Of a stretch of DNA of 64,000 nucleotides, positions 1 through 28,417 are shown piece by piece. The notes beneath the pieces were generated by a model. That model saw only the letters and a list, made by a program, of their open reading frames with translations. It did no database searches and was not told where the DNA came from. This DNA comes from Prevotella sp. (GTDB taxonomy: Bacteria > Bacteroidota > Bacteroidia > Bacteroidales > Bacteroidaceae). How positions within the stretch are numbered: the first letter of the stretch is position 1; every line of letters begins with the position of its first letter. The DNA lies in NCBI GenBank assembly GCA_017554145.1, contig JAFZIZ010000001.1, forward strand, positions 124,001-188,000, given 5' to 3'. The position numbers were made by a program, and so were the translations under genes.

Positions 1-3000
1 CCAATATTGGCACCAGGGTTGTCAATCCATTCTGTGCCATTGGTGTATGGATCTTTACCGTTACCACCACCGAACACTTCCTGTATTTCGTAAGCACCAC
101 GTACGAGGACATCCGTCTCGGGTACCTCAGCCGCATTACCGCCACCATAGACATCTCGGATACTGACATCACAGGTCTCGATTCTGACATATGTTTTCTT
201 GCCTGCTGCAGTATAGTCAGCCAAGTTACCACCGCCATAGACAGTAGCCACCTCATAGGTCGGAACTACATACCCTTCTTCAGTTTCATAAGTATCCGGG
301 TGGCTTTCCTTGAGAGCTTTATTACTCGTTATTGCATCTGAAGTTGTTCTCGTGATATTACCTGGGACTGTCTTATAGACCGTCACCCTCACGTCGCCCT
401 GTGGCGAACCCATCAGGTTGTTACAGCCAAACACACGGCCGCTCTTCACGATACCGACATGACCCGTGTCTGTATATTTAGTGACATGGAAAGCTGTCGC
501 AGATGAATTTGCAGCACTACTACCCAGATTCACACTGATGTCACCATAGACCACAGCAGCAAGGTCGCTTGTCGCACTATTGAAGCCCGTCTTCTGTCCT
601 AAGCCACCGCCATAGGCATCACCTTTGATAAGACCGCCCGTCAGGTTGACAGTAGTGGTGTAACGTGCATAATAATCGGTTTCTGCAACAGCTGTAGCAG
701 TTGTGCTTGTGATTTCAGTATAATTATCTCCATCCTTTGTATAATAGCCTGTTACTGGAGATACATCTGTTGTGAGTCCATAAACCTTCACATATTCTAA
801 CCGTTGATTGTTAACGGCATCCCAGTGTGAGGTATTCGTATTGGCAAGTGCGCCGCCACCATAGACGTCTTCGTTCACGGTACCGCCAGTCATATCAACC
901 TTCACACGACCTAAGGCAACACCTCTCTGACCACCACCATAGACAGAGCCATGGACCGTAGCACTGCCACCGATAGTCACTTCGGTATTGCTAGTTAATG
1001 CCAGCGTCTTCAGGAAGTCAAGATATTCGGTCTCACTAGTAAATCCAGGGTGAGTACCATCCATCATCCAATGTTCAGTTGCCTGTTCATAATCTGGCGT
1101 AACTCCCTTGCAGGCACCAAAGACTTCACCTGAACCATCTGAGCCGACGACAGCACTGCCTTGGATAGTGACTTTACATGTGCCTCCGCTTAACGGTTCT
1201 CTCGGTAATGACTCACGGACATTAAATCTGCCCACCGAAGCAGTCTCGCCTCCACCATAGACGCTACCTTTAATTTTGGCAATGCCCTGAACAGTGACTG
1301 TCGTATTGCCACGCAACAGTGCAGAGTAGCCATGTGTCACTAAGCCTGCGCCGGCACCGAAGACGTCGCCTTTGATATCAGGCTTGTTTCCTTCTCCGGA
1401 ATCAGTTGATCCTCCAATCGTCACCGTCGCATTATTTTCCACGCGACCTACCTGACCACCGCCATAGACGGAACCTTTAATTGTACCATCAGTGATGCTG
1501 ACATTCGTTTTATACACCATGGCTTTCTCACACCAATAGGTGTCTTCCAGTCCCTTGCCAGCTCCGAACACATGACCTGTGGTAGACACGTTATCGGTTC
1601 CTATGATACCGCCATTGATGGTAACATTGCAAACGCCAGTGTTATTGTAAGTATAGTTAGGATAAGTCGCATCAGGATTATTCGTCCACATATAATTGTA
1701 GTTCGTGGTATTCTTGACGATGGTACCCACATCGCCTAACTCACCACCACCATAGACATTACCATATGCAGTGCCATTATTGACGATGACATTGGTGCTG
1801 TCTTTCACTTTTCCTGCTTCTGCAAAATAATCAAGACCTTTTCCACCGCCAAAGATGTTGCCATACGAGCCTGACGTACCAATCGTACCATTCTGAACCA
1901 TTACGGTCGTATTATGCTGTACAAATCCACTCTCGCTACCGCCATAGACAGAGCCCTTGACGGCAGCCGAGCCGTTGATGGTCACATAGGTATTGGTGAC
2001 TAAGGCTAGAGTCTGAAGGAACTCTAAATACAGTTGTTCAGCAGTTTTTCCTGTAGTCTCGTCATCAGTAAAAGGAACCAGTTCATTACTGCTAATCATC
2101 TTTTTAGACGTGTTAGCATCATAATGAGGATTTACTCCCTTGCCAGCGCCAAAGACGTGTCCTGCGGTCCCTGTTGCTGCTCCTTCATTAGGTCCGATTA
2201 TTGCATTGCCTTGAACGGTGACTCTACATTTTCCACCACTCCGTTGCTGATAGGGCATTCCAACAGGCAAACCATCAGGAGCATCAGGTTTTGTTTCTCC
2301 AGTACAAGGAGTTGAATCAATACCTTTAACCCAATATCTACCCACCGTTGATTTCTCGCCGCCGCCATAAACATTCTTCAGCACTTTGGCACTACCCTGA
2401 ACGGTGACAGTACTGTTGCCACGCACCAATGCCGAGTAACCATGTGTCTCCAAGCCCTTACCAGCACCGAATACGTTACCTTTGATAATGGGTGCAAATG
2501 AGCCTTCTCCAGTTCCGACTCCTATCTTCACCTGCGTATTCCATTCCACACGGCCAATCTCACCGCCACCATAGACGTTACCTTCCACCGTACCGTTACT
2601 GATAGTGACGCTCGTTCCTTTATTGTTATTCGTATCTGAATCGGGATTTTCGCATGCGCCTGCGCCATCAACTCCCACCATAGCTTGCTCACAGGTGAAT
2701 AGGTCTTCCACACCCTTACCACCTCCAAAGACGTTGCCATGATCTGGATTATCAGAAGTACCATTACCAATGGTTCCTCCACTCATGGTCACTTCAGTAT
2801 TACCTTCTACGTTAGACTCTTCACCACCTCCATAGACATTGCCATTGACAGTGGTTGAACCTTCAATATTAAGTGTGATATCGCCTGTAACAGTACCGAG
2901 ATTATCTAATGAGTTCCATGTATAGCAATACCATTGGTCTCCTTTTTGATAGGTCGGATCTGCCTTTCTTTCATCTTCGCTCTTTCCATTTAAGTCATTG

Positions 3001-6000
3001 GTCCATTCGTACACTGTTGCTGCGTATGGTATATGACCTTCTGTGATGACACCTGCATCATTGATTGACGGGAACACCTTACCATCTTTGTACTGTACTT
3101 GGAACGTAGGAATAGCTGCAGAAAAACCAGCACCAAAGACGCTACCGTCCACTTGGGTATTGGTTAATGTCGAGGTGACATCGCCACTGACACTGGCAAG
3201 GTTGCCACCACCATAGAAATTACCCAACACTTTACAGTTTTCCAGTGTACTCTCAACAGTACCTGTGGATGTGATTCCGAACTGTATCCACTTGATAAAA
3301 CCGCGCTTGGTAACCTGATCTTCCAAACCGTTTGACTGGTTGAATACTTCAAATTCATATTCGGCATGGTAACCCTTGTTATCAGCGCCATCGTCCTTGA
3401 CACCTAAGGGGTTAAATCCATCCCAATTGTAAGAGGAACCAGTATCATTGCCTGGCTTATTAGGCCAATTGTCACCAATATACGAAGAGGCGAAATCACC
3501 ATCGCGTTGCAACTGCCTGTAGTAACTATTACCGCCATTGCCACCACCGTAGAACACACCGAAGGTTGTACCCTTAGCATCAGTTTTAACAGTTTTTCCT
3601 GCTGTCATCACTCCTACTTTTGGACCACCACAGTATTTGTCAACTTTGCTATTATTAATAGTGACATCAATGTTACCACTAACAGGATTAGAAGCATTGA
3701 TACCGCCACCATAGAACTCGCCTATCAATGAATGATTGATTTTAAATATGACGTCCTCGCCAGGACTTACTTTGTCATAGCCGGCCCCTGCCACAATGTC
3801 GAATTTACCACCATCGATATAACAACGAGGTGCTCCTCCGATTGTTGACGGATTATTCCCAGTTGTTATAGGAAGTTCAGGGCGATAAAGACCTGTAAGG
3901 TAAAGTTCCTTGACCTGACCACCAATCACATTCACAGGGAACAAATAAATATCAGGCTTATCTCCAGCATTAGGGTGAGCACCTGGTGCGAAACGATGTA
4001 CCCATGCGTTGCCTCCTAACAGGAAATAACTGGTACGGTCACGTTGAGCTTGAGTAGCGGTTCCACTCTGCTTCCTTTTGGTAAACATCTCGTGCTCACC
4101 ACCATTGATGATAACTGGAGATTTGCCAGTTCTGCTAACATTTGCATCATACTCAAACTGCGTAGTATGCATAAACGCCGTTTCCGTAATTTCGAAATGT
4201 CCCAATGGTATCATAATACCAATGGCGTATGCCTTTTTATTGGTGCGGATGGCAAGTCCTAACTCCGGCACAGGCAGGAAATCAAAACGGATGGGCTGGA
4301 CACCAGGACGGTCAATGTCATTACGGAATTGCAGCTCCAAGCAATTGTCTGGCTCATTGTCAAAATCAAGGTCTGCACTCATCAGAGTGAATGGCTTTGA
4401 ATTGTTCCCTGTTAAGTTAACAACATAACTATGATTCCTTACTTGAACATTACCTATCAATACGATGGCTTGATTATATACATCTTTACTATTATTACTA
4501 CCTTTGGCAGACAAATGACTGATAGCTTCTTGAATGGTTGTATAAACCGATTGGTTTTGGAATTCGTTAGATATAGTACCTGCTGGGGTAAATGCCGATC
4601 CATATTTTGCTACTTTAGCAGCAGTGCTATTTTGTGTTTCACTCTTTCCTGATGCCACATCCACTCGATCTATACTATAATCTTTGTTACACAAGTAAAC
4701 AGCATCAGCCCAATGGGCAGTGATAGAGATGGATGTCACTCCCTTTGGAACATAAAAATATCCACCTTGAGCAAATACTCGACCACTATAATTGTTACGG
4801 TCTGCAAAGTTGTAGTCTGTAGCATCACTACCTCCGGAAATATCCCATCCCGTCACTACGTGGGCGGTGTAGTTACCACCATATTTCGCTTCCCATGTGC
4901 CTCCATTGGGATTACCAAAGATTTCGTTATAATAAGGAAGTTGTATCTTTCCATAACAATAGTCATTGTATTCCGTGTCCATCGCCGTAATCTTGATGGG
5001 CTTACTGGTTGAACCCGAATGATAACTACCAGCATTAATAGTAACGTTGACTGTTCCGAGTATTTGTCCCTCCGTATCAGGTGCCATATCCTCACCCCAA
5101 TGATCAGAGGCATTAGCTCTATTAACCCATGTCTTAGTGGTAGGGTCAACACGTTTGTCTGGGTCCTGATTAATAACAGAAGGGTACTTACCCCATTTCT
5201 TTAGAATGGGATAAGGGGCAATGCTGAGGTCGAGCACCCATTTGGCAATGCCTACATCTTCTATGTCTGCGTCAGATGGTGCTGTACCGTTTGTTCCATT
5301 CACCCACCAAGTACATAGTTTCTTATTGCTATTAAGAATGCTACGATAGTATTCGAAGCGAGTAAGATACTTGGCATCTGCTGGCCATGAGCGGTGATAA
5401 TCGTCAATACTAAAATTATTATCGAAAGTAACATCATCCACATAGGTGTCTGTCGCTTTGTCATACCTGTTACGGCGATAATAATTATAATTGTTGACAC
5501 CCGTCTCACTGGCATTGTCTATCAGTTCTCCACCATATACAGGAGAGATGTTGGAACCAGTAATGTTGCCATAGAACATGCAGTTCATCACCATACCCGC
5601 CGTTTCGACAGTAGCCTGTGTCGTACCTACAGGATTGTAGCCCACGATACCAGCAGTATAGCTTCCGCCATTCACATTGGCAAAACTATAACAGTTGATG
5701 ACACGAGTATTTCCTGAGATACTACCCACAATACTACCTACATGACCACTGCCACTGATAGTACTGCTCGTCGTAGCAAGCACACCACAGTTATAGATAC
5801 GTGTAGCTCCTGTCGCTTCATTACAGATAGCACCAGTGTTTCCATTCTCATTACCACTGGTAATAGTTACATCGTCAAGAATCACGTTCTTAATTGTTGC
5901 CCCGTCGGCATAGGCTACCAAAGGATAACTGAGCGAACGAGTGATTAGTTCACCATCAACAGCGCCATCAATGGTGCCAGTGAAAGGATTATCTGAAGTT

Positions 6001-7592
6001 CCTATCGAGCCTGATGAAGTGAAGTTGCTGGCAAGAATATAGTTGCCGCTCATATTTGTTATCTGGCTTGAAGAAGATACTTCTGTGGGTGGGAGGACGG
6101 CTGCCTCATTGGAGTTTACATAACCTGCCTTTGTCGCAATGGCCCTGATAGCCGATATATTACCTTTTGCAAATGGGGCAGTATAAGTAGTCGATGAAGA
6201 AGTGGCAGGGCTTCCATCGGTTGTATAATGAATCGCAGCTCCTTCTGTAGCGCAGGTAATGGTCACATTACCACCACTAATGGTGATAACAGGCTTTGCG
6301 CATTGAGGAATCTCGTAAGTGGTCACGTCGGAAGATACTGCACCCAGATAGGCAATAGCCTTGATGATCGTGGCATCACCGAAAGAGAAGGCAGAAGAAT
6401 ACTCTGCGCTTGTATTGTCAGGAGTCTCTCCATTGGTGGTATAGTATATTGTAGCACCAGCGGTGGTTGTGCTCAGCGAAATGGTGCCGTCACCATTGTT
6501 GGTGACGGTAGGAGCCGCGATGACGGAGACAACTGTTTTGGAGGCCACCTCGGTCAGCACAATTCCGTAACGCACCACCACAGCTTTGACATTCATACCA
6601 CTTGTCACGTCAATGGGACCGGAATAGACGTTGCCAGTAGTGGCAGTAGGGGCATTTTGGGTGCCATCACCTGTGGTATAGCGTATAGTATAACCCGCAG
6701 GCAGACTGTTGGCATCGGTGATGGTAATGGTGTTGGAGGCACTTATGTCACTGATGGTTGGAGCAGCAAGGAGAGCGGTTTCAAATTTCCATTTTGAGTT
6801 AGAATCCAATTCATCTTTATTACTATCAAGACCATACAATCCCACAAGTCCATTCCAATAGTTACTAGCGCCTTGGCCTTGTCTGTTGTTTTTGTTTCCA
6901 TCAGCAATGTTCCAAAATATGTAAGGTGAGCCTTGACCCGGTGTTACATCTTTAAAAACTTTCGGTATAAAATAATATGCTCCATCCCTTTCCCCAATTA
7001 CGAATTTGGCATTTTCACCCGATGATGCCTGTAGGTGCATACACTTTCTTCGCCAATTGCCGCTACTAGAAGGACCATTATAGCCTGAATAGTAAGGATC
7101 ATAGACCACATATTTGTTTGTCTTGACATGTATGACGTAATAGAAAGTGCCATCATCATCCGTAACCTGTTGCAACACCCATACCGCCTCGTTGTCCTGA
7201 CCAATCTTATAGGTTGTAAGGAATGGGTCTTGTTCTCCAGTATTGTCATGGAAAACATCCGATTTGTTGGCTGCAGCAGCAGGCTCACATGTTGGCACAA
7301 GGTAGAAATTGTTAGCAGGCGTGCTACTATTATAGGTATAACCACCAGATTCTTTAGTATTACCACCGCTGGCAATATAATACACTCCCGAATAATCCGT
7401 TTGTCCCCACGTTTTTTCAGTTCCCAAAACAAGCATCAGGAACAAAAGGCTGAGGGTTCGCAGAAGTTCCCACGAAAGAAAAGAATTATTCCCACGTTGG
7501 GAATGAAATGTTCCCACGTTGGGAATGAAATGTTCCCACGTTGGGAATTTTTCATTAGTAGGCATGTATTGTGTCGTTGTCTTGTTGCTCAT
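1..7592 (-). CDS. Giant YGGG-repeat surface protein, C-terminus beyond the window
   Basis: Minus-strand frame open from an ATG at 7592 to the left edge (2530 codons, no stop). I checked the frame at about 7500, 4860, 3700, 2790, 950 and 80 and it is continuous, so no frameshift is needed. The N-terminus is odd: about 42 residues precede a hydrophobic core (residues 43-57, LLRTLSLLFLMLVLG), with a likely cleavage near TWGQ at 61-64. Residues about 66-260 look lectin-like (beta-trefoil-like, weak). Residues about 265-500 hold three chitobiase C-terminal-type repeats (for example ATIYYTTNG and AAIHYTTDG). Residues about 500-655 hold GLUG-like motifs (GSIVGSISG). From about residue 1290 to the edge, V-Y/F-G-G-G repeats every 30-60 residues suggest a beta-solenoid. 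It starts 18 bp after the stop of the other giant and is probably the next gene of the fimbrial operon. Function not known; a secreted or tip adhesin is inferred. Confidence 0.85.
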   Translation of the reverse strand, partial: MSNKTTTQYMPTNEKFPTWEHFIPNVGTFHSQRGNNSFLSWELLRTLSLLFLMLVLGTEKTWGQTDYSGVYYIASGGNTKESGGYTYNSSTPANNFYLVPTCEPAAAANKSDVFHDNTGEQDPFLTTYKIGQDNEAVWVLQQVTDDDGTFYYVIHVKTNKYVVYDPYYSGYNGPSSSGNWRRKCMHLQASSGENAKFVIGERDGAYYFIPKVFKDVTPGQGSPYIFWNIADGNKNNRQGQGASNYWNGLVGLYGLDSNKDELDSNSKWKFETALLAAPTISDISASNTITITDANSLPAGYTIRYTTGDGTQNAPTATTGNVYSGPIDVTSGMNVKAVVVRYGIVLTEVASKTVVSVIAAPTVTNNGDGTISLSTTTAGATIYYTTNGETPDNTSAEYSSAFSFGDATIIKAIAYLGAVSSDVTTYEIPQCAKPVITISGGNVTITCATEGAAIHYTTDGSPATSSSTTYTAPFAKGNISAIRAIATKAGYVNSNEAAVLPPTEVSSSSQITNMSGNYILASNFTSSGSIGTSDNPFTGTIDGAVDGELITRSLSYPLVAYADGATIKNVILDDVTITSGNENGNTGAICNEATGATRIYNCGVLATTSSTISGSGHVGSIVGSISGNTRVINCYSFANVNGGSYTAGIVGYNPVGTTQATVETAGMVMNCMFYGNITGSNISPVYGGELIDNASETGVNNYNYYRRNRYDKATDTYVDDVTFDNNFSIDDYHRSWPADAKYLTRFEYYRSILNSNKKLCTWWVNGTNGTAPSDADIEDVGIAKWVLDLSIAPYPILKKWGKYPSVINQDPDKRVDPTTKTWVNRANASDHWGEDMAPDTEGQILGTVNVTINAGSYHSGSTSKPIKITAMDTEYNDYCYGKIQLPYYNEIFGNPNGGTWEAKYGGNYTAHVVTGWDISGGSDATDYNFADRNNYSGRVFAQGGYFYVPKGVTSISITAHWADAVYLCNKDYSIDRVDVASGKSETQNSTAAKVAKYGSAFTPAGTISNEFQNQSVYTTIQEAISHLSAKGSNNSKDVYNQAIVLIGNVQVRNHSYVVNLTGNNSKPFTLMSADLDFDNEPDNCLELQFRNDIDRPGVQPIRFDFLPVPELGLAIRTNKKAYAIGIMIPLGHFEITETAFMHTTQFEYDANVSRTGKSPVIINGGEHEMFTKRKQSGTATQAQRDRTSYFLLGGNAWVHRFAPGAHPNAGDKPDIYLFPVNVIGGQVKELYLTGLYRPELPITTGNNPSTIGGAPRCYIDGGKFDIVAGAGYDKVSPGEDVIFKINHSLIGEFYGGGINASNPVSGNIDVTINNSKVDKYCGGPKVGVMTAGKTVKTDAKGTTFGVFYGGGNGGNSYYRQLQRDGDFASSYIGDNWPNKPGNDTGSSYNWDGFNPLGVKDDGADNKGYHAEYEFEVFNQSNGLEDQVTKRGFIKWIQFGITSTGTVESTLENCKVLGNFYGGGNLASVSGDVTSTLTNTQVDGSVFGAGFSAAIPTFQVQYKDGKVFPSINDAGVITEGHIPYAATVYEWTNDLNGKSEDERKADPTYQKGDQWYCYTWNSLDNLGTVTGDITLNIEGSTTVNGNVYGGGEESNVEGNTEVTMSGGTIGNGTSDNPDHGNVFGGGKGVEDLFTCEQAMVGVDGAGACENPDSDTNNNKGTSVTISNGTVEGNVYGGGEIGRVEWNTQVKIGVGTGEGSFAPIIKGNVFGAGKGLETHGYSALVRGNSTVTVQGSAKVLKNVYGGGEKSTVGRYWVKGIDSTPCTGETKPDAPDGLPVGMPYQQRSGGKCRVTVQGNAIIGPNEGAATGTAGHVFGAGKGVNPHYDANTSKKMISSNELVPFTDDETTGKTAEQLYLEFLQTLALVTNTYVTINGSAAVKGSVYGGSESGFVQHNTTVMVQNGTIGTSGSYGNIFGGGKGLDYFAEAGKVKDSTNVIVNNGTAYGNVYGGGELGDVGTIVKNTTNYNYMWTNNPDATYPNYTYNNTGVCNVTINGGIIGTDNVSTTGHVFGAGKGLEDTYWCEKAMVYKTNVSITDGTIKGSVYGGGQVGRVENNATVTIGGSTDSGEGNKPDIKGDVFGAGAGLVTHGYSALLRGNTTVTVQGIAKIKGSVYGGGETASVGRFNVRESLPREPLSGGTCKVTIQGSAVVGSDGSGEVFGACKGVTPDYEQATEHWMMDGTHPGFTSETEYLDFLKTLALTSNTEVTIGGSATVHGSVYGGGQRGVALGRVKVDMTGGTVNEDVYGGGALANTNTSHWDAVNNQRLEYVKVYGLTTDVSPVTGYYTKDGDNYTEITSTTATAVAETDYYARYTTTVNLTGGLIKGDAYGGGLGQKTGFNSATSDLAAVVYGDISVNLGSSAANSSATAFHVTKYTDTGHVGIVKSGRVFGCNNLMGSPQGDVRVTVYKTVPGNITRTTSDAITSNKALKESHPDTYETEEGYVVPTYEVATVYGGGNLADYTAAGKKTYVRIETCDVSIRDVYGGGNAAEVPETDVLVRGAYEIQEVFGGGNGKDPYTNGTEWIDNPGANI
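7467..7547. repeat. 22-bp tandem repeat with inverted-repeat core, inside coding sequence
   Basis: Three 15-nt cores TTCCCACGTTGGGAA start at 7489, 7511 and 7533, and a degenerate copy starts at 7467, giving an exact 22-bp period. Each core has 6-nt inverted arms (TTCCCA/TGGGAA) around a 3-nt centre. Because 22 is not a multiple of three, the giant gene translates the copies in three different frames (FPTWEHF, IPNVGTFH, SQRGNNS; residues 16-37). The array lies in the first 42 codons, before the hydrophobic core. Confidence 0.95.
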
Positions 7593-7610
7593 ATCTTGTA
7601 TCTTACTTGA

Positions 7611-19115: not shown

Positions 19116-19137
19116 TGCTTACACCTTATTATATATA

Positions 19138-20196
19138 TTAATTGACCGTGAATTCTGGAGAATCCAGATCCTTTTCTGACAACTGCCCTAAATAAGTGGG
19201 TGCCACATTCAGGTTGAGGGTCACAAGTTGTCCTCTGCTGGCACTTAGGTCAGGTAACACATTTGTCGCCGTACAGTTTTCTCGTATCTTATTGTCATAC
19301 CTGTCGTACACATCATAAGTGCAGACAAGGGTCAAGGCACTGCTCTGTTCAGGAGCGAAATAGCCAAAATAACCACCGATAGTCGCAGCATTCTCTGGTT
19401 TGAGTTCTATACCTGCCGTATTTTCGAAGAACGTGGCAGTCTGTGTTCCTTCATCCGCAGTTGTCAGCGTATAAGAGACGCTCTTCACAGGGTCTGCACC
19501 CGTTATATTTGGAGTCAATGTGATAGTTGCACTAACCGATGTGTTTGTGGTGGTTAACGCCATCCCCTTGAGTTTGATCTTACGCAGTGCACTGTATTCT
19601 TCATCCACTGTGAAATTGAGTTTGACTGCCGCAAAGAGGTGATCCATCAGCAATCGAACCTCGTTATCGGTAGGCGAATCTGTATCATGAAATGTATAAT
19701 TAAACTTACCCTGCAACAGATCACCATCTACATCCTTGACACCCGTGATAAAGCAGACGTCTTCGGCAATGACGGCAGGAATACCCGTCAGCGTCAATAT
19801 CACATCATCTCCACTCTGCGAGATAGTCGGCGTAATCGCATTGGTTTTGGGCATAAACCCATAGATGGTATATCCTTTTCCATCCTCTACGATAGCCTGT
19901 GAATGCCAAACGCCATTGCTATAACGGATTAATTTGAGATCATATTCAGAAGAAGGTAGATCATCAGGCTTTATGAAAAGGCCAATGGTAAAATCATGAT
20001 CGGGAGTATATGGTGAATAACCTTCCGAGTCAGCACGACGAGACAAAGCGCCATAGTTCTGATAGGCGGCGGTATAAGGCACAACCTGCAAGGTATTGAC
20101 TGTCCGCTGTTCATTCGTACTATCCGATGAACAGGCAGCCAATAGCCAACAGCCAACAGCCAACAGCCAAACGTATCTACCAGTTATACACCTCAT
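19138..20196 (-). CDS. Fimbrillin-family lipoprotein (352 aa)
   Basis: Lipoprotein signal peptide with the lipobox LLAAC at about residues 18-22, then a Ser/Asp-rich stretch. The body has the pattern of Mfa-like fimbrillin-family proteins: an early exposed strand (LQVVPYTAAY), a YTIYGFMPKT-type strand, and a two-domain beta-sandwich length. Its ATG lies 20 bp inside the end of the preceding lipoprotein gene, which suggests coupled translation. The signal-peptide codons are built from a 7-bp tandem repeat at 20134-20168, so replication slippage would shift the frame. A minor subunit or tip adaptor is the likeliest role, from family and context only. Confidence 0.8.
   Translation of the reverse strand: MRCITGRYVWLLAVGCWLLAACSSDSTNEQRTVNTLQVVPYTAAYQNYGALSRRADSEGYSPYTPDHDFTIGLFIKPDDLPSSEYDLKLIRYSNGVWHSQAIVEDGKGYTIYGFMPKTNAITPTISQSGDDVILTLTGIPAVIAEDVCFITGVKDVDGDLLQGKFNYTFHDTDSPTDNEVRLLMDHLFAAVKLNFTVDEEYSALRKIKLKGMALTTTNTSVSATITLTPNITGADPVKSVSYTLTTADEGTQTATFFENTAGIELKPENAATIGGYFGYFAPEQSSALTLVCTYDVYDRYDNKIRENCTATNVLPDLSASRGQLVTLNLNVAPTYLGQLSEKDLDSPEFTVN
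20134..20168. repeat. 7-bp tandem repeat in lipoprotein signal-peptide codons
   Basis: Five heptamers on the plus strand: ggcagcc, aatagcc, then aacagcc three times. On the coding (minus) strand they give the period-7 peptide WLLAVGC/WLLAACS. Gain or loss of one unit would shift the reading frame about 10-20 codons after the start. Confidence 0.92.
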
Positions 20197-21307
20197 AATC
20201 TACCGACTTGTTAGTCCAATCTTTAATATATAATGAATTGATCTCTAAGTAATCACCACCCGTATAGTAGGCATAGACTATCCACGAACGGTTGCGCACG
20301 AAGTCGCCTGCCGCCTCCATTTGAAACGTTGCGGGTGTTTTTGCTACATCATCCACTGAATAGGATATCGTACCAGCCAACCGTTGGTCTGACTCACGCA
20401 GGTAATAGGGACCTACTACCGTCAGTTCATTAGCAGCAACAGCCGCGTTGATACTATTTTCATACGCCTGTGCCGCCTGTCCGTCATAAATAAATTTGAG
20501 CGGATCGTCTGTTTTTTCCACCTCATCGATAGTTGAAGGCAATAGCGATACAGATGAAGTATTATAAGTCAACGTCTTATCCTGTGGAATCAAGTATTCC
20601 TCAGTAGGAATCATCTGCGCATTCAGCGAGATTCCCGTAATGCTCAATTTCTTTGCACTTTCATTCGTTATATTCTTATTGGCAAAGACAAAACGCACTT
20701 TCGACACTGCACGTTCCAATTTAACAGTGGCAATGTTGTTCTGTGTACCAATGCGCAATACAGGAGCATCTCCAAAAACTGGCTGATCGTTTAATACACC
20801 AACCATAGGCAAGACACCAGGAGGTTCTGTAGAGAAGAAAGACGTTGAGACAAGAGAAGATAGTCCGAAATGCGATTCGGTCAGTTTGGCATGATCCTTC
20901 AAATAATCGCGCGTACTATTCTCATTGAAAGCACAACCACAGTTGCTATTCATCACATTGGCAAGCACATAGATATCCACATTAGGCTTATAGCGTGCAA
21001 AATCATCATCGACCGCAATCTGGTAGGTGGCTCCTTCATTTGAATTCAGGGCATCAGTGGCTGTCGTATTAAGATAGCCTACCAAGTTTCCAGTACCTCT
21101 TTCGAATATCCACATCTGTAATTTATCGATCTTCGACTCTGCGGCTAAAGCATCAACGTCTCCAATAGCAGCACGAATCAGCATGGGATGTTCTGGAGAA
21201 TATACATAGACAGTCAGCATGGTGGGCTGCTTCTCTTCCGTTCCATCGGAAGAACTACAGCCAACAGCAAGCAGCAAAAGAGAAATGAGAAATGAAAAGG
21301 CTTTCAT
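20177..21307 (-). CDS. Fimbrial-type lipoprotein (376 aa)
   Basis: From the chosen ATG the protein begins MKAFSFLISLLLLAVGCSSS, a clear lipoprotein signal with the lipobox LAVGC. An ATG 39 bp upstream (21346) is in frame but would add 13 residues encoded by low-complexity spacer sequence, so I prefer 21307. The body resembles fimbrillin-family or FimB-operon minor subunits: LQMWIFERGTGNLVGYL in the first third, VDIYVLANVMNSNC, and a C-terminal YYTGGDYLEINSLYIKDW, a typical last-strand pattern. It probably incorporates into the fimbria as an accessory or tip component. The gene sits 40-80 bp after the second fimbrillin paralogue and overlaps the next lipoprotein gene by 20 bp. Confidence 0.78.
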   Translation of the reverse strand: MKAFSFLISLLLLAVGCSSSDGTEEKQPTMLTVYVYSPEHPMLIRAAIGDVDALAAESKIDKLQMWIFERGTGNLVGYLNTTATDALNSNEGATYQIAVDDDFARYKPNVDIYVLANVMNSNCGCAFNENSTRDYLKDHAKLTESHFGLSSLVSTSFFSTEPPGVLPMVGVLNDQPVFGDAPVLRIGTQNNIATVKLERAVSKVRFVFANKNITNESAKKLSITGISLNAQMIPTEEYLIPQDKTLTYNTSSVSLLPSTIDEVEKTDDPLKFIYDGQAAQAYENSINAAVAANELTVVGPYYLRESDQRLAGTISYSVDDVAKTPATFQMEAAGDFVRNRSWIVYAYYTGGDYLEINSLYIKDWTNKSVDYEVYNW

Positions 21308-21353
21308 TCCCTGCAGGGTACGATATGTCATTCCTTCATTTTTCATTTACATT

Positions 21354-21381
21354 TTTTCATTTCTCATTACTCATCACTCAT
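21354..21381. repeat. Heptamer tandem array (nnnnCAT units) in spacer
   Basis: Four 7-nt units on the plus strand: ttttcat, ttctcat, tactcat, cactcat. It fills the short spacer between the second fimbrillin-like gene and the next lipoprotein gene, and belongs to the same style of 7-nt array seen at 28426, 28524, 28702, 29177, 30304 and 32195. Confidence 0.8.
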
Positions 21382-21386
21382 TTATA

Positions 21387-23096
21387 TCATAGCTTCACCG
21401 CCGTCGGTGTTGACAGCACCCATTTTGTTTGTACCTGCACACCAATTTCAAGTCGTGGTGACAATAGGTCGGGCATGCATGAATAGGCATTTGCCAATGA
21501 GGTTATTGTCATCGTGACCTCCGTCGTATAGTCTTGTGTAAACACACGATTCGCACAGACACCTGTTCCCTGTCCTGCAGGGTTTATCTCACCAACAAGA
21601 TAGAACTTCGTATTCGGATAGATAATACCATCCTTGCCTGCAAACTTCTGACCAGTCTTGTTCGTCATTTCCAAGATGACAGGTACCTTTTCTCCGTCAT
21701 ACGACTGAAGCACCAATGTGTTCACTGTAATGGCAGCATTGTTTTCGTGGTTCCCCACTTGAGTATCATAGATAAAACGGGCATCTACATTACTCTGCTC
21801 CCCCATTGGTTTGAAATCGAAGCCTACCGTATGCTGGCCACCGATAATCACACCTGTCAGTTTAAAGCCATTTGTAGCACTATAAATGACATTAGCATTC
21901 TTCGAGTCTTTCAATGAACTTGCCGTTATTTCATTCAGTGTCATCTGCAAACGTCCTACACCATATTGCAATGGATCTACCACTGCAGCAGACTTGGTCG
22001 TCACAGCAACAGACTCCTCGTCATATTTCGCTAACAAGGTACTCCACTCCGATGTCCCTTGGTACACGGCCTCACCCACCTCCTTGTCAGAGGTTTTGAT
22101 AGTACTATTGACATAGTACCATAGTTCGGCAGGATAGGTATAACGATTGATACCGTTGATATTGTCGAGGGTGGTTGTCATCGTACGTACCAAGAAAGCA
22201 TCCTCACTGGCAATCCACCTCAAAGCAGCAGCGCCATCAGGAAGTCCTAAAGAATTTTCAGGATCCGAGGGATAACCGTTATTGACACATGAATCCTCAT
22301 TTTCCACATCACCTATACGTTCGATGATGGCATCGCAAAGATCCTTGGTTTCTTGAGGTACACCAGATGCCTTGATTTCCACCAACTGATCGTTGAGGGC
22401 AGAGGCATACGCCTTGACATGAGTAGCTGAACCAGCCATCAATCCTGTTCCCTCTGAGTCGGAATGAATAAAGTCCAAATAGAGAGCCTTTAACTGTGAA
22501 TCGTCCGTTGTACTCCATCCTGTCGTATGGGCAATGGCTGTGAGATAGTTGGCTAAATCCCAAGCAGGATCAAAGATGTCTTCCTCAGGATCGTTTTCCT
22601 CACAGATAGGCTGCAAACTGAACGTGATATCTGCGGGCACAATGATCTCCTCGCCAGCACGGGTCAGCAACTTTCCATTTTCAACAGATGACTCCTTGTT
22701 TATAATAGGCTTAGCCTGTCCATAGACCAATACTCGGTTGGTGCCCTGTTTCAAAGAACAACGTCCTATATAGTAGTAGTTTTGATCTTCCACTTTGTTG
22801 GCTTGTGTAGCTGTGGCAATGGAAAGCAGTGGGAAATCATTTACTGTCACTGCATCTGCCTCAGTGGTGCTAACAGTGGTCTCGAAAGGAATCACCCATA
22901 GTTTCTGCAAACCTCTGAATTCCTGTCCTTCAGTTTGAACCACATCATTTGCCATACGCATCCCATTCTGATGTCCCATGCTGAAGGCAAGGTCATACTG
23001 CTTAGGAGGAGTGACAATCACATCATCCCATGCCGAACACGATATCAACACCGCATTCAGTAGTAATAATCCTGAAATGATGTGAACTTTTTTCAC
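21387..23096 (-). CDS. Fimbrillin-like lipoprotein, paralogue of the gene at 24176-26149 (569 aa)
   Basis: Lipoprotein signal peptide with lipobox LISC at about residues 17-20. It shares several blocks in the same order with the 657-residue protein two genes upstream: GMRMANDVVQTEGQEFRGL against GMRMAAATVQETGNPFRGI; VQYGV/LQYGVGRL; GFKLTGVIIGGQHTVGFDF against GFTLTGVLIGGQNPVGWDF; and KFYLVGEIN against TFYLVGTLN. The two are therefore paralogues within one operon. Both are probably fimbrial shaft or accessory subunits, lipidated during export and then polymerised at the surface, as known for Mfa1/FimA-type fimbriae. It lies 40 bp after the Mfa2/FimB-like gene. Which paralogue is the major subunit cannot be told from sequence alone. 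Confidence 0.8.
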   Translation of the reverse strand: MKKVHIISGLLLLNAVLISCSAWDDVIVTPPKQYDLAFSMGHQNGMRMANDVVQTEGQEFRGLQKLWVIPFETTVSTTEADAVTVNDFPLLSIATATQANKVEDQNYYYIGRCSLKQGTNRVLVYGQAKPIINKESSVENGKLLTRAGEEIIVPADITFSLQPICEENDPEEDIFDPAWDLANYLTAIAHTTGWSTTDDSQLKALYLDFIHSDSEGTGLMAGSATHVKAYASALNDQLVEIKASGVPQETKDLCDAIIERIGDVENEDSCVNNGYPSDPENSLGLPDGAAALRWIASEDAFLVRTMTTTLDNINGINRYTYPAELWYYVNSTIKTSDKEVGEAVYQGTSEWSTLLAKYDEESVAVTTKSAAVVDPLQYGVGRLQMTLNEITASSLKDSKNANVIYSATNGFKLTGVIIGGQHTVGFDFKPMGEQSNVDARFIYDTQVGNHENNAAITVNTLVLQSYDGEKVPVILEMTNKTGQKFAGKDGIIYPNTKFYLVGEINPAGQGTGVCANRVFTQDYTTEVTMTITSLANAYSCMPDLLSPRLEIGVQVQTKWVLSTPTAVKL

Positions 23097-23136
23097 AGCT
23101 TAACGTCTCTTTTTACACCTTATAAATAATGGAGTA

Positions 23137-24165
23137 TTAGATACCAATGTCGTGTTTGCCACCTTCTTGCCAGTCGAGTGTCACCGTGACTCCTACTTCC
23201 GTATTATCAGTGAAGATATCACCTTTATCACCCATAAAGCCATTGATGATTATCAACTCACCAGCACTTAGTTTTTTCCTAATACTCAGTTTCGTCTCCG
23301 TCACTGTTCCGTCTTCGAGAGTCACATAGACCAAGAACTGCCAGTACGTCTTATCAGACGCTCCGTCATCGAAATCTGTCTCTACAACTGTACGCATCCC
23401 TTCTTCTGACGAGGGGAAGTTGACAGCACAGAAACACAGATTGCCGCCCTGCGTATCCAGTTGCTGAGTACGGACAATAGGCGACTTCTCGGAGAAGGAG
23501 TAAATACTGTCGTTGATATTAAACTGAGTGGCAAAGCCTGTGGCATAGACCTTGATATCCTTGTACTTCTGTCCTCGCGGATTAATCACGAGCGCTTCCG
23601 CACAATTCGCCATATAGAGCTGTACATGGAACGTCTGATCGACACCTTCCAGCACCTTCATAGACTGACGTGCCGTAAAGAGTCCTGTGGTGTGCGAGTC
23701 GATGATGTCATCACCCGTCGAAACTATGGCAAGTCGTGAAGTCGGGCAACGGTCGTCACCTGTTAAGTTTACCACGGAATTGTCCTTGATATTGGCAACA
23801 GCCAGATGCATGTATTCGCGCATCGGGAGATAGAGTGTATAACTCTTCTCACTGGCGTTCATCACGTGCTGATCGTGACTCAGTCGATCCTGAGGTTTTT
23901 CGGTGTCATAGAACGAGAGATCGATATCACGGGCATAATCGGTGAAGATCTCTTCCAAATGAGAACGCAGGGCATTGGCGACGTTGACGTCAGCGGCAGT
24001 ACTGAGTTGGGTATTCAACTCGGTGGTGATATTAGTCACCAACCGCATCTCATAATCCAACTCAAAGTCGTTGTCGCAATCGCTCAAGTCATCGTCAATC
24101 GTCGAACATGCTGTCGGCAGCAATACTGCCAACAGCATGACGACATATCTCCACGTGCTCTTCAT
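23137..24165 (-). CDS. Mfa2/FimB-family fimbrial anchor lipoprotein (342 aa)
   Basis: Lipoprotein signal MKSTWRYVVMLLAVLLPTAC followed by STIDDDLSDC. The C-x(4-5)-D-D-L-S-D-C start is characteristic of the Mfa2/FimB fimbrial anchor and assembly family. Later features also fit: YLPMREYMHLAVANIKDN, a central LYMANCAEALVINP, and a C-terminal SAGELIIINGFMGDKGD segment before the last strand. Known members cap the cell-proximal end of the fimbria, anchor it in the outer membrane and limit its length. It lies between the two fimbrillin paralogues (10 bp after the first, 40 bp before the second). The codons of its signal peptide contain a 14-bp inverted repeat (24107-24139). Confidence 0.87.
   Translation of the reverse strand: MKSTWRYVVMLLAVLLPTACSTIDDDLSDCDNDFELDYEMRLVTNITTELNTQLSTAADVNVANALRSHLEEIFTDYARDIDLSFYDTEKPQDRLSHDQHVMNASEKSYTLYLPMREYMHLAVANIKDNSVVNLTGDDRCPTSRLAIVSTGDDIIDSHTTGLFTARQSMKVLEGVDQTFHVQLYMANCAEALVINPRGQKYKDIKVYATGFATQFNINDSIYSFSEKSPIVRTQQLDTQGGNLCFCAVNFPSSEEGMRTVVETDFDDGASDKTYWQFLVYVTLEDGTVTETKLSIRKKLSAGELIIINGFMGDKGDIFTDNTEVGVTVTLDWQEGGKHDIGI
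24107..24139. repeat. Inverted repeat in the 5' end of the anchor gene
   Basis: Arms at 24107-24120 and 24126-24139 (14 nt, one mismatch) around a 5-nt loop, in codons about 10-20 of the Mfa2/FimB-like gene. In mRNA this would be a strong hairpin close to the start codon. Part of the symmetry could come simply from Leu/Ala codons of the signal peptide. Confidence 0.8.
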
Positions 24166-24175
24166 GTGCTAAAGT

Positions 24176-26149
24176 TTAAAAATCAACCGTAAACTGCAGA
24201 CCTGGCTGCCACTGGAGATTGACAGAGAGTCCTAATTCCATCCATGGGGTACGCAGGTCGGGAAGTCCCTTTGTAGCGGTACCAAGACCTTCCTCATCAC
24301 CAGCGGCTGATCCATTATTGTTTGTACCCAGTTTGATAGAGAATGTAGCAATGGTCGTACAATCCTGCGTGAAGATGCGTTTGGTAACATCATCACTGGC
24401 TCCCTCTTGCTTAGTACCATTTGCAGCATTCAAGGTACCCACCAGATAGAAGGTTGCACCATGATGGATGACCTCTCCATTTGCTCCAACAAAATCAGCA
24501 CAGTTATTAACGAACTCCAAAGCGACATTGATAGTCTTATCTGTAGTTTCCTCACCTGTTTGCAGCACCAAAGTATAGTTCGTAACAGCAATTCCTGGAG
24601 TTGCCTCTGTTGCTCTAACAACCTTAGCATCTGCTCCTCCTGGTATTGTATTATCGTAAATTGTATAAATTGCATCACCCTTCTTCTTGAAGTCCCAACC
24701 TACAGGGTTCTGACCACCGATAAGGACACCCGTCAGTGTAAAGCCACTGGTCACATCGACTTCGTCACCATTATAGTCTTTATATTTATTTGTGGTAGCA
24801 TTCGACAAGAGTTCTTTTACATTAGCATCCAGACGGGCTACACCATATTGAACCTGATTCGTAATAGCGACAGAACGAGTATCAGCAGTTACAGCAGTAC
24901 CATTAGTATAAAGATCCAAAACGCCACCTTCGCCACTCCATGCTTTGGTTCCATAGTTAGGTGATTGTACGTCATCAGATACTTTTACAGGGCTGTTTAC
25001 GAAATACTGCAGGTTGGCAGGATAAATATACCTGTTTAGATAAGCAACATTCATACTTGAAGCATACGTTACATCGGTAGCAGCTACGAACGCACCCTCT
25101 TCATAAGTTACACGAGCAGCACCGTCAGGCAAATTAATATTGGCAGGATAACCTGTAATTTCGGCAGCAAGACCAGTCTTCAATGTTACTGATGTCGTGT
25201 TGGTACCATTAATAGCAGTTGTAACAGTTCCATTTTCTTTAATAACACAGTATTTTGCAATCTCATTCCTAATACCTAATGCCATCTTATAAGCGTTAGG
25301 AGCAGTGATCTTTGCTGCATCGGTTACCATACCGTCCAATCTCATGTAAAGGTCGGAGAAAAGAAACTCTACATTGTTGGAGGAACCTGTTTTCAGACTG
25401 CTGAATCGAGTAAATAACTCGTGAATAGAATGACTCTGTTCTTCGGTCACATTCCTGAACTCAGTAGCTGCACTTTCACCAGTCAAATTAGCATTTATAA
25501 GATTATCACCATCATACTCTTTCGGTGTTGCTTGAGCCACGGCATTCAGGGCTGCAATCAGATTGGTACCAATTGCATCAACGTCTTCACTTGAATAGAT
25601 AGGCACTGGGGTGAACGACACTTCATTCAAGGTTGGCTGTCCACTAAGACCTGCATCGTTCAGTGTACCAAACTTGAACTTATCTGCTGCAGTTTCTATT
25701 GCCGTTCCTGCCGTGTTATCGATAGCCTTTCCATAGAATAGGAAATTACTTGTTCCTACTAACAGGCTGACATCGGCATAAACTTTCGAATTGCTTTGAG
25801 TATGATCAAAAGCTGAGAGAGGTGACAGAGAAATCAGATTAGCATTAGCTGTTTCAGTACCTTGCACACCATCTTCTGCATCAGCACCTAAAGAATAAGG
25901 CACCAACTTAATGTTGTCAATACCACGGAAAGGATTTCCAGTTTCTTGCACAGTAGCTGCAGCCATGCGCATACCAGAAATGGCTTCCGGCAATGAAATG
26001 GTGAACTGTGTCTTAACACTCTCACCATCATACGTTGGATTCGGTTTCGGATCAAGGGCTGTATCATCACTGGATGAACAAGCTGTGAATCCTACTACGC
26101 TCAGCAGTGCTATCGCACCGACATAAGCAAAATTCTTGAACTTTTTCAT
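24176..26149 (-). CDS. Fimbrillin-like lipoprotein (657 aa), likely major subunit
   Basis: Lipoprotein signal with lipobox GFTAC at about residues 21-25, followed by SSSDD. The N-terminal block (QFTISLPEAISGMRMAA, then GNPFRGIDNIKLVPY) and the C-terminal block (TGVLIGGQNPVGWDF, ATFYLVGTLN, RIFTQDCTTIATFSI) are shared with the 569-residue protein at 21387-23096. As the first fimbrillin-type gene of the operon, directly after the OmpA-like gene and before the anchor, it occupies the place usually held by the major fimbrial subunit. The length is greater than classical FimA or Mfa1 proteins. Role inferred from family resemblance and gene order. Confidence 0.8.
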   Translation of the reverse strand: MKKFKNFAYVGAIALLSVVGFTACSSSDDTALDPKPNPTYDGESVKTQFTISLPEAISGMRMAAATVQETGNPFRGIDNIKLVPYSLGADAEDGVQGTETANANLISLSPLSAFDHTQSNSKVYADVSLLVGTSNFLFYGKAIDNTAGTAIETAADKFKFGTLNDAGLSGQPTLNEVSFTPVPIYSSEDVDAIGTNLIAALNAVAQATPKEYDGDNLINANLTGESAATEFRNVTEEQSHSIHELFTRFSSLKTGSSNNVEFLFSDLYMRLDGMVTDAAKITAPNAYKMALGIRNEIAKYCVIKENGTVTTAINGTNTTSVTLKTGLAAEITGYPANINLPDGAARVTYEEGAFVAATDVTYASSMNVAYLNRYIYPANLQYFVNSPVKVSDDVQSPNYGTKAWSGEGGVLDLYTNGTAVTADTRSVAITNQVQYGVARLDANVKELLSNATTNKYKDYNGDEVDVTSGFTLTGVLIGGQNPVGWDFKKKGDAIYTIYDNTIPGGADAKVVRATEATPGIAVTNYTLVLQTGEETTDKTINVALEFVNNCADFVGANGEVIHHGATFYLVGTLNAANGTKQEGASDDVTKRIFTQDCTTIATFSIKLGTNNNGSAAGDEEGLGTATKGLPDLRTPWMELGLSVNLQWQPGLQFTVDF

Positions 26150-26195
26150 AATCGATTATGTTTTTAAATTTATTATATGTATTTCCAAAAACGGA

Positions 26196-27545
26196 TTAAT
26201 TATCTACATAGTCAAAGTAAACACGCAGATAGCCTGCATTACGCTGGTCTGTCAAGTGGTGTTTCTTGAGGTACTCATACGTACGACCGCCTCTCAACTT
26301 ACGAATCTTCTGCTCACGACGACCAAGGTTCGGTTCGGTATCGATGATGTCAAGCACTTGTTGCAACTGCTTGGCGAGAGCAGTCTGCTTAGCATCGCCA
26401 CTGAGACCATCCACCTCTTCCTGAAGTTGGTCACGGAAGTCTGCCCAGTCCTCACCGCCGAAGTTCAACTCAAACATATCGTCGCCCAGCGGCATGCGCT
26501 CCTGAATGTATTTCTTCAGTGAGTATGCACGCTCCTTGGCTACACGCTCATTGAACGACTGATATCCATCCCATGAGGCAAGACCCACAATCTGAATCTT
26601 ACAGATCTTACTGTCCTTGTCTGCCATCATCTTCTCCGTTACGTCCATGATGCGGTCAAGCGTCTGCTTGTTGTCACGCCAGTCGGGCAAAATCTCGCTC
26701 TTCGACATGGGGAAGTAGACGAACAAGGCAGCCTTATCACGACGTAACACCTGACTGCGATCATAGGGCTTATAGTCAGAGATATGTGCCAATATCGGCT
26801 CTGTACGAAGCAAGATGTCAATATTACGCTCCTTGGGAGGTGCCGGAACAGTATCCACAGGAACCGTCTCTATGATTGGCGGCTGCACCGTCTGAATAGT
26901 ATCGATAATAGGCGGTATTACTACCTGTGGGACTTTCTTCGCTGGACGTCCAGGAATGTTATAGACAATATTGATTCCTGCCTGAGGTAATACAAACCAC
27001 CTATTGTCATCACCAATCTTCGTACCACACTTGCCACAAGCGTAACGATCGTATTTGGCATATCCAACAACAGCACCAATCAATGCCTCGAGATTCCAGT
27101 GGCGTCCCAATGGCCAAGAATAACCGTAGAAAGCACCCAAGGCTCCGAGGTCACCCTCGCGACGCTCATGGCGGAAACCTTTATACAATCCGAACGGGAA
27201 CTTCAGATTAGCCAGATTATAATGACTGTAAATCAGGTTGACACCAAAGAAATGATGCACATTCACCGAGTCCGTCCAATAGCGCACGTCGGGTGATACC
27301 AACAGATGGCGCCATTTAGTGGAAACATTATCCGAGGTGGGCCAGGGGCGATAGCCTCCAGTCACTCCCATCGACCAATGAGGTGATAAGCGCAAGCCTA
27401 CTCGAAGATTCGGAGTGAGTAGTGCGTCATATAAGAGATTGTTACTGACGGTCACTTGCTGCGCCTTCACAGAGGGCGTCATCAGCAACATCATTGCCAA
27501 TAACATACTTGTCAAGAATCCCTTTTCTTTTGTTCCAATCGTCAT
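26196..27545 (-). CDS. DUF3575 / OmpA-like outer-membrane protein (449 aa)
   Basis: From the chosen ATG the signal peptide is MTIGTKEKGFLTSMLLAMML, ending near VKAQQ. Residues about 28-210 match the DUF3575 beta-barrel pattern (NNLLYDALLTPNLRVGLRL, then YGYSWPLGRHWNLE) and contain a CGKCG pair. A Pro/Val/Thr-rich linker follows at about 215-245. The C-terminal part (about 270-449) is OmpA-like, with ICKIQIVGLASWDGYQSFN and the arginine-rich RVAKERAYSLKKYI, a peptidoglycan-binding pattern. An in-frame upstream start at 27740 would add 65 residues without a signal peptide and is rejected. Members of this family commonly head fimbrial operons in Bacteroidales; here it is first, 46 bp before the first fimbrillin gene. 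It could link the appendage to the cell wall (inference). Confidence 0.85.
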   Translation of the reverse strand: MTIGTKEKGFLTSMLLAMMLLMTPSVKAQQVTVSNNLLYDALLTPNLRVGLRLSPHWSMGVTGGYRPWPTSDNVSTKWRHLLVSPDVRYWTDSVNVHHFFGVNLIYSHYNLANLKFPFGLYKGFRHERREGDLGALGAFYGYSWPLGRHWNLEALIGAVVGYAKYDRYACGKCGTKIGDDNRWFVLPQAGINIVYNIPGRPAKKVPQVVIPPIIDTIQTVQPPIIETVPVDTVPAPPKERNIDILLRTEPILAHISDYKPYDRSQVLRRDKAALFVYFPMSKSEILPDWRDNKQTLDRIMDVTEKMMADKDSKICKIQIVGLASWDGYQSFNERVAKERAYSLKKYIQERMPLGDDMFELNFGGEDWADFRDQLQEEVDGLSGDAKQTALAKQLQQVLDIIDTEPNLGRREQKIRKLRGGRTYEYLKKHHLTDQRNAGYLRVYFDYVDN

Positions 27546-27588
27546 GTTTATGTAACTAAACGTTAAATTTTTGTTGTAAAAACTACTG

Positions 27589-27596
27589 CAAATATA
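27589..27596 (-). promoter_or_regulatory. Candidate -7 box, fimbrial operon (proximal)
   Basis: TATATTTG on the minus strand fits TAnnTTTG and lies about 43 nt before the ATG of the OmpA-like gene. A -33 TTG is not evident; the palindrome at 27609-27618 covers that position. Confidence 0.45.
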
Positions 27597-27799
27597 TATA
27601 TAAATACGCGTACGTACGATAGAATTAACATATTTTTTGATAATTAACGCAAAATTCAAGTATTTTTGCAGTTTTAGAGTCCTATTTAGGGCTTTGTACG
27701 TAATTTTCCGAAATCGAGTAAAAAGTGAAGATATATTCATTGAAGTAATAATTTTAAGTTTATAGTTTAATCTTAAAGCTTTAGCTTTGTATCCGAGGA

Positions 27800-27807
27800 C
27801 AAAGATA
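27800..27807 (-). promoter_or_regulatory. Candidate -7 box, fimbrial operon (distal)
   Basis: TATCTTTG on the minus strand is a perfect TAnnTTTG. If used, it would give a leader of about 250 nt before the OmpA-like gene. No clear -33 TTG at the usual spacing. Confidence 0.4.
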
Positions 27808-27943: not shown

Positions 27944-28417
27944 TTACTCCCAAGTCGTATAGGGATGTGCACAAAGTTGACTATTATAATATCGGCGGTC
28001 GCCAGTGACTTCTTTTCCGATGAAATCGGGGATTTTTGGAGTTTCATCGGGTGTTTTCAACTCCACTTCTGCCATCACAAGACCCTCGTTTTCACCCAAA
28101 AACTCATCGACTTCAAAGGTATGTTGACCGCTTTTTACCAACCATCGCACCTTATCAATGGTGCCTGAGCCGCATAATTCCATGAGTTTTTGACCATCTT
28201 CAAGGGGAATTTCCTGCTCAAACTCATAGCGAACGAGTCCTTTTTGATCGCTTGGACCCTTAATCGTGATATATGCACGGTCATCACGGATGCGAATTCT
28301 GACCGTTTTACCACGCTCTCTACAGATATATCCCTGTTGAATATGGCTATGACTGAACGATTCCCGTTTATAGGAGTCGTTCAGTACCAAGAATTTACGC
28401 TCAATTTCCAGTGCCAT
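27944..28417 (-). CDS. CYTH-domain protein (157 aa)
   Basis: Starts with the signature EIERKFLV (residues 4-11) of the CYTH superfamily (class IV adenylate cyclases, thiamine and inorganic triphosphatases). Further alternating charged strands fit the triphosphate tunnel: KTVRIRIRDDRAYITIKGP, LVRYEFEQEIP, HTFEVDEFLGENEGLVMAEVEL. Length is standard for the single-domain bacterial form. The substrate is most likely tripolyphosphate or another triphosphate, by family; cyclase activity is less likely. It is the last gene of the minus-strand series that starts with the acyl-CoA synthetase, with repeat-filled spacers on its upstream side. Confidence 0.85.
   Translation of the reverse strand: MALEIERKFLVLNDSYKRESFSHSHIQQGYICRERGKTVRIRIRDDRAYITIKGPSDQKGLVRYEFEQEIPLEDGQKLMELCGSGTIDKVRWLVKSGQHTFEVDEFLGENEGLVMAEVELKTPDETPKIPDFIGKEVTGDRRYYNSQLCAHPYTTWE

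Follow-up and report, generated by a model that had tools for sequence, protein, structure and literature searches.

A conserved variant of the Mfa-type fimbrial operon in Prevotella carrying two giant YGGG-repeat proteins

To our knowledge, most of what is known about the tip proteins of type V fimbriae comes from Porphyromonas gingivalis, and the locus described here raises the question of what part two repeat proteins of several thousand residues could play behind a set of fimbria-like lipoprotein genes in Prevotella. The window, that is, the whole stretch of 64,000 nucleotides analysed (G000:C7:124001-188000, from a 2.80-Mb Prevotella sp. assembly of 38 contigs with 83.5% completeness), contains a gene cluster, referred to as operon A, whose last genes encode giant 1 (G1) and giant 2 (G2). 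Operon A is real and conserved, and it represents an unusual form of the Mfa-type fimbrial operon. The interpretation favoured here, to which a probability of roughly 0.6 is assigned, is that of a type V-like fimbrial operon in which G1 is a repeat-built tip or tip-associated adhesin exported by the type IX secretion system (T9SS) and G2 is a second surface filament. Such a conserved operon, with a T9SS-type protein of ~4000 residues in the slot of Mfa5 and a giant of up to 11,862 residues, occurs in many rumen Prevotella-type genomes, offers a testable system for the cooperation of fimbriae with T9SS and for the export of very long chains, and bears on how rumen bacteria may hold fibre or partners. 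Among the titles and abstract openings listed in a literature search whose coverage left out most subscription journals, none dealt with YGGG giants or giant-bearing fimbrial operons.

Operon A consists of seven complete genes and one gene cut by the window edge, all on the minus strand, with intergenic spacings of 46, 10, 40, 40, -20, 22 and 18 bp from the first gene to G2; the open reading frames (ORFs), their coordinates and the 10-46 bp gaps or overlaps are as given in a preliminary description of this DNA. The first gene (26196..27545), taken there for an OmpA-like base, indeed encodes a protein with a DUF3575 domain (PF12099, 3.3e-51) and a weak OmpA match (0.0072); its longest ORF is 26196-27740, and the in-frame ATG at 27545 precedes a stretch that resembles a signal peptide by eye. 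It is followed by fim1 (24176..26149), encoding a 657-residue lipoprotein and putative shaft pilin, by the gene of a putative Mfa2/FimB-like anchor lipoprotein of 342 residues (23137..24165), and by fim2 (21387..23096), encoding a 569-residue lipoprotein. Slot 5 (20177..21346) encodes a FimA-type lipoprotein of 389 residues with the C-terminus YNW, and slot 6 (19138..20196) a fimbrillin-like lipoprotein of 352 residues directly before G1. A signal sequence and lipobox-like Cys were recognized by eye in all five lipoproteins and by pattern search in four. G1 (7611..19115), with 3834 residues, combines a signal peptide, a YGGG repeat and a T9SS type A-like tail, and G2 (1..7592) is represented in the window by the N-terminal 2530 of its 4899 residues, with the remainder at C7:116893-124000 and the full gene at C7:116893-131592. 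The sizes first reported for the giants, 3834 and at least 2530 residues, are thereby confirmed. The gene spacing suggests that operon A may be a single transcription unit.

Support for a linkage of giants and fimbrial genes comes from relatives of the locus. Four blocks from inside G2 served as queries and yielded 170 related stretches, of which the best 80 were condensed into 64 named loci; each belongs to an assembly labelled Prevotella, Prevotellaceae, Bacteroidaceae or Bacteroidales, many of them with ruminant names. When 16 clusters were read gene by gene and cross-checked by tblastn, the order of a DUF3575/OmpA-type gene, lipoproteins, slot 5, slot 6 and G1 was seen in every one, and slot 6 abuts G1 throughout, with a gap of -4 to 58 bp. 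In genomes G160 and G176 the first gene is a DUF3575 gene without the OmpA part. A separate relative of the anchor gene is present in 10 clusters, operon A included, and a G2-type giant or its apparent first part follows G1 within 61 bp, likewise in 10. An assembly artefact is an unlikely source of this order, since the same order is found in G283, one of the clusters, which lies on a single-contig chromosome of 3.55 Mb. The giants are also rejected as chance low-complexity frames because similarly long open frames recur in the 16 clusters; some G2 frames are truncated at the edge of a piece, and in G170, L054 and L066 the frame seems to be divided or damaged. G1 spans 3777-4444 residues across these clusters and is conserved over its full length, with 44-62% identity to nine relatives.

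Broader counts point in the same direction. The position of DUF3575 relative to G2 was counted in 50 of the 64 loci, and the domain is encoded upstream on the same strand and contig at 33 of the 50 G2 places, at a distance of 25.5-55.6 kb. The G1 profile matches in 65 of 399 family genomes, own genome included; with two or more matches in one frame joined into one place, this gives 71 G1 places. At 43 of them, in 42 of the 65 genomes, a DUF3575 gene precedes G1 on the same strand at a distance of no more than 60 kb. Among plus-strand G1 places starting beyond contig base 32,000, the fraction is 17/19. The 50-genome and 65-genome counts overlap, because some assemblies occur both among G151-G200 and among the family genomes, as recognized by identical coordinates (G158/G141, G185/G021, G189/G104) or by DUF3575 places (G157/G300, G180/G305, G194/G385). 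In 150 other family genomes, 18 have the G2 profile together with G1, four G1 only and 128 neither (Fisher p 9e-20); up to three of the 18 co-occurrences may be G1 itself, since the G2-profile frames are as long as G1 (the matches of G010 and G147 and the best match of G133). Within the own genus the cluster is rare: G283 provides the only other G1-profile match, and fim1 relatives occur in seven of 39 other genomes. The cluster, G2-place and G1-place counts together reject the idea that the giants lie mostly away from fimbrial genes, and the linkage of fimbrillin-type genes to a giant that the preliminary description named as a supporting result is borne out.

A parallel for G1 is offered by Mfa5 of P. 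gingivalis, a T9SS-dependent protein of 1228 residues at the fimbrial tip; as far as the consulted part of the source states, no other fimbrial protein of that species carries a T9SS signal (PMC7835359). Like the mfa1-mfa5 genes, operon A places lipoproteins, a putative anchor and accessory genes ahead of a large protein that has a T9SS C-terminal domain, and the T9SS translocon gene SprA is encoded in the genome (2600.9 bits). The T9SS-like tail attributed to G1 is real but weak: the whole protein matches T9SS type A (TIGR04183) at 15.9 bits, short of the cut-off of 23, which the isolated tail exceeds with 24.3 bits; TIGR04183 is matched at E<=1 in all 10 isolated G1 tails scanned, which come from 10 of the 16 clusters (best 4.5e-6). 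G1 thus stands in the Mfa5 slot with an Mfa5-type signal, and a tip role is likely by analogy. It differs from Mfa5 in its 3834 residues, in being largely YGGG repeats and in showing no match to the von Willebrand factor (vWF) domain. It contains 31 [YF]GG motifs, compared with a mean of 5.2 and a maximum of 13 in 200 residue shuffles, and the repeat starts right at the mature N-terminus, the signal peptide being placed by eye; the repeat likewise follows the signal peptide directly in 14 of the 16 clusters, with cleavage judged in the same way.

On this basis, a fibre would be formed and anchored by the lipoprotein subunits in the way known from P. gingivalis. G1, in the place of Mfa5, would cross the outer membrane via T9SS by means of its C-terminal domain and act as a very large adhesin, built of repeats, at the tip or associated with it. 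G2 would be a second repeat-built surface filament, the length of which shifts by repeat expansion. In type V fimbriae, polymerisation proceeds by donor-strand exchange once a protease has removed the first strand. Assembly of the operon A lipoproteins into a fibre, the tip position of G1 and the surface location of G2 are all predicted, and the structure may serve adhesion to plant fibre, the host or other cells.

The repeat is more extensive still in G2, with 59 [YF]GG motifs versus a mean of 9.8 and a maximum of 18 in the same number of shuffles. The part within the window shows a signal-peptide-like N-terminus (by eye), a sub-threshold Peptidase_M26_N match near it, and Fn3_assoc and CHB_HEX_C domains, after which the long YGGG repeat begins. 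A model of residues 1580-2260 (681 residues), built from 44 segments picked from 50 loci, is nearly all beta and confident, with a predicted local distance difference test (pLDDT) of 89.5 and a predicted template modelling score of 0.92; each of 16 motifs has a strand at its VY/VF, and most repeats have short strands on both sides of it. From this regular strand pattern the repeat is predicted to be a solenoid. The multi-thousand-residue beta-solenoid proposed earlier is supported, for 681 residues of G2, by a confident all-beta repeat model, its wider extent and its place as a fimbrial tip or sheath being predictions. Foldseek, which is weak on repeats, returned 69 PDB matches at E<=10 and none at E<=0.001, and a viral fold library gave no match to the G2 model at E<=0.001. 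Many of the weak Foldseek matches are beta-helical; among the 50 matches listed, the query-normalised template modelling score is at most 0.21 and the target-normalised one at most 0.39 (3pet, the putative adhesin BF0245 of Bacteroides fragilis). Beta-helical adhesins such as pertactin, Ag43 and the IgA1 protease passengers, which appear among these weak matches, share the repetitive all-beta character; unlike such autotransporter or two-partner adhesins, with which there is no match at E<=0.001, G1 has a T9SS tail instead of a beta-barrel. The YGGG repeat may be a type of beta-solenoid without a close solved relative.

The C-terminal side of G2 was compared in 32 ends, namely that of the window G2 and those of 31 of 39 named complete giants. 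Seven of the 39 have other or broken ends and were left out (L044, L050, L054, L060, L066, L068, L077), as was L082, a duplicate of L081. All 32 have a final coil with the pattern GxxIxGNVYGGGxxxxVxxxxxVxIG at the C-terminus or close to it. Complete G2-type frames span about 1.4 to 11.9 thousand residues, for example 2453 in G283, 4899 here and 11,862 in G104, the last being an ORF with 217 [YF]GG motifs in the G2-type position (L145-L147, G104:C104).

Operon A has a more conventional neighbour. A second fimbrial operon, operon B (G000:C7:98956-116834; L003, L004, L006), begins on the same strand 58 bp downstream of G2, outside the window, so the giants do not occupy the last place on the strand that was first ascribed to them. 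Its order is DUF3575, DUF3868, Fimbrillin_C, Mfa2, Fimbrillin_C, a FimA-type gene and a third giant of 3143 residues, which lacks [YF]GG motifs and has a sub-threshold T9SS tail match. Only two DUF3575 genes were detected in the assembly at E<=0.001, those of operons A and B. Operon B has the canonical Mfa-type layout and operon A is the divergent one: both place DUF3575 first, followed by lipoprotein subunits and large last genes, but operon A fuses OmpA to DUF3575 in its 514-residue protein, lacks a separate DUF3868 gene, and carries different main lipoproteins and two repeat-built giants. In Bacteroides thetaiotaomicron, the consulted part of one source places DUF3575/DUF3868 genes at BT4233-36 and an Mfa1-type gene at BT4227 (PMC10434189).

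Several observations weigh against the favoured interpretation, the first of which concern the linkage itself. No DUF3575 is encoded on the contig at 16 of the 50 G2 places, and at one it lies on the other strand; likewise, 27 of the 71 G1 places are without DUF3575 within 60 kb on the contig and one has it downstream. Of these 27, 14 belong to genus g24, in which all three clusters read lack DUF3575, and others lie on short contigs or near contig ends. No separate Mfa2-like anchor gene was found by tblastn in six of the 16 clusters, where the sole match to the anchor query was the OmpA-type gene (G166, G184 and genus g24) or there was no match at all (G182). The distance from G1 to the next giant is 0.5-5.9 kb in six of the 16 clusters, in most of these with additional ORFs in between. 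In addition, G1 has no Pfam match at all at E<=1, hence no vWF domain like that of Mfa5, and the hallmark of the Mfa5 family, a vWF domain with a metal ion-dependent adhesion site together with immunoglobulin-like domains, is absent from it; its likeness to Mfa5 consists of the slot and the T9SS tail. One conceivable alternative makes the giants free-standing surface adhesins of T9SS type that merely share a transcript with the fimbrial genes and never become part of the fibre. In its favour, G1 greatly exceeds Mfa5 in size, and cargo of T9SS is commonly either released or kept on the cell surface. In genus g24 the front of the operon also changes, with other lipoproteins and no DUF3575 in the three clusters read, and the group of slot 5, slot 6 and G1 is retained. 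That the FimA-type slot 5 and slot 6 directly precede G1 in all 16 clusters nevertheless fits a physical partnership, and the free-standing alternative is regarded as doubtful.

A fimbrial role for G2 faces a further difficulty, as TIGR04183 is matched at E<=1 in none of the 32 picked C-termini and no outer-membrane export signal was recognized there. Both giants had been placed in the position of Mfa5; the parallel stands for G1, with its slot and T9SS tail, and is rejected for G2, which lacks the tail. A second giant without a T9SS tail is also a departure from the Mfa1 fimbriae of P. gingivalis. The missing domain, combined with the signal-peptide-like N-terminus, would suit a periplasmic G2 that forms no surface filament and takes part in fibre assembly, perhaps by acting as a scaffold or as a ruler that sets length. 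Its highly variable length and its Fn3_assoc and CHB_HEX_C domains are more like an exposed filament, and a periplasmic location is judged decidedly improbable. Another arrangement would put G2 outside the cell: there is a bare coil at the end of G2 and another at the start of mature G1, so the two proteins may be stacked into one continuous two-chain solenoid, with G2 carried out and held by the T9SS domain of G1. This geometry, for which the G1 starts in 14 of the 16 clusters and the 32 G2 ends speak, is judged unlikely. With a coil rise of 0.48 nm, ~31 and ~59 coils would correspond to about 15 and 28 nm, and 217 motifs to about 100 nm; if the two chains do stack, the result would be a fimbrial spear of tens to >100 nm, the reach of which is set by the number of G2 repeats.

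The identity of the main lipoproteins is a further point of weakness. Alignments of fim1, fim2, anchor, slot 5 and slot 6 comprised 6, 7, 7, 9 and 10 rows, drawn from no more than 10 clusters and using only genes whole within one piece, with the fim1, fim2 and anchor rows from one lineage type. The window copies of fim1, anchor and fim2 have no Pfam match at E<=0.1, and at this threshold a fimbrial Pfam match is absent from all six members of fim1 and all seven of fim2, unlike the Mfa1 fimbriae of P. gingivalis. With regard to the two-beta-sandwich pilin fold of type V shaft subunits, neither has a solved relative beyond chance antibody matches, and the fold model of fim1, built from only two window sequences, is uninformative (pLDDT 28). 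The search of six alignments for solved relatives by sequence gave nothing credible, including antibody chains for fim1 (E 0.021 and 0.073), the fimbrial protein BF1861 for slot 6 (E 0.94) and alanine racemase for the G1 tail (E 0.63). fim1 and fim2 were called fimbrillin paralogues at the outset; paralogy is upheld (profile-profile probability 100%, E 7e-75), and none of the 13 members scanned has a fimbrial Pfam match to back a fimbrillin identity. For the proposed Mfa2/FimB anchor, two of seven aligned members match Mfa2 (PF08842, best 7.8e-8) and the window copy does not. Slot 5 matches FimA (PF06321) with 26.9 bits against a cut-off of 21.4, as do seven of nine members at E<=0.1, and slot 6 reaches 22 bits against Mfa_like_1 (PF13149), below the cut-off of 27, with one of 10 members matching. 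Two main lipoproteins without a fimbrial Pfam match would agree with operon A being another surface-lipoprotein array, such as a coat, equipped with giants and forming no fimbria. The FimA match above cut-off, the Mfa2 matches among anchors, the DUF3575 base gene and the parallel with operon B all speak for a fimbria, and a coat appears very improbable.

The last adverse point is transcriptional. In 1 kb at the G1-G2 junction, terminator-like sites number four versus 0.7 in shuffles, and this enrichment at the start of G2 slightly favours a separate or reduced G2 transcript. Over 7300-27000, 17 such sites were found and 12.6 expected. The junction includes three 15-bp palindromes, TTCCCAACGTGGGAA, at 22-bp spacing (7489..7547) within the 5'-terminal part of the G2 ORF. 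These score as terminator-like, with T runs of poor quality, and may reduce expression of G2 or be located ahead of its true start. Bacteroidota promoters are recognized by a motif with a -7 element. The full motif (TTTG-N-TANNTTTG) is absent from the minus strand at the slot 6-G1 and G1-G2 junctions, which says little, because none is found upstream of the first gene of operon A either. A -7 element match, TATCTTTG, lies upstream of the first gene (27800..27807, minus strand), at near chance frequency, with 46 matches in the window versus 38.6 expected; the full motif (four found versus 1.45 expected) is also near chance, and sigma-70-type promoter matches number 38 versus 37.6 in shuffles. 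The evidence on signals before the giants that could have separated them from the fimbrial genes, with promoter motifs missing at the junctions and terminator-like palindromes present, is thin.

The palindromic element itself, TTCCCANNNTGGGAA, occurs in one to three copies with 22-bp spacing at 23 places in eight groups in the genome, whereas shuffles predict 0 in the window. Its other sites in G000 are C5:3807, C7:80018, C13:706, C18:154245, C35:5174, C36:86158 and C38:25660. It is found just past G1 both here and in L038:3562 (= L125:5790) and L027:2343 (= L118:18398), and ~1.6 kb past the G1 end in L075:3880.

Small genes accompany the giants at some loci. Between G1 and the next giant, G160 (L121) and G184 (L131) have small ORFs that look by eye like, and are presumed to be, toxin-antitoxin or ORF6N-type genes. 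An exported thioredoxin-like CxxC protein of ~255 residues (by eye) follows G2 in G283 (L135/L134), G014 (L138) and G158 (L115); such a gene is missing directly after G2 at the own locus, and a thioredoxin-like CxxC protein, also recognized by eye, follows the third giant of operon B. Upstream of operon A on the minus strand are two genes, at 28772-29146 and 27944-28417, which we take to encode a four-helix-bundle-like small protein and a CYTH-like protein, respectively. Further along the window, at 42035-57027 on the plus strand, lies a cell division and wall cluster with MraW, a penicillin-binding protein, Mur ligases, FtsW, a MurG-type protein, FtsA and FtsZ.

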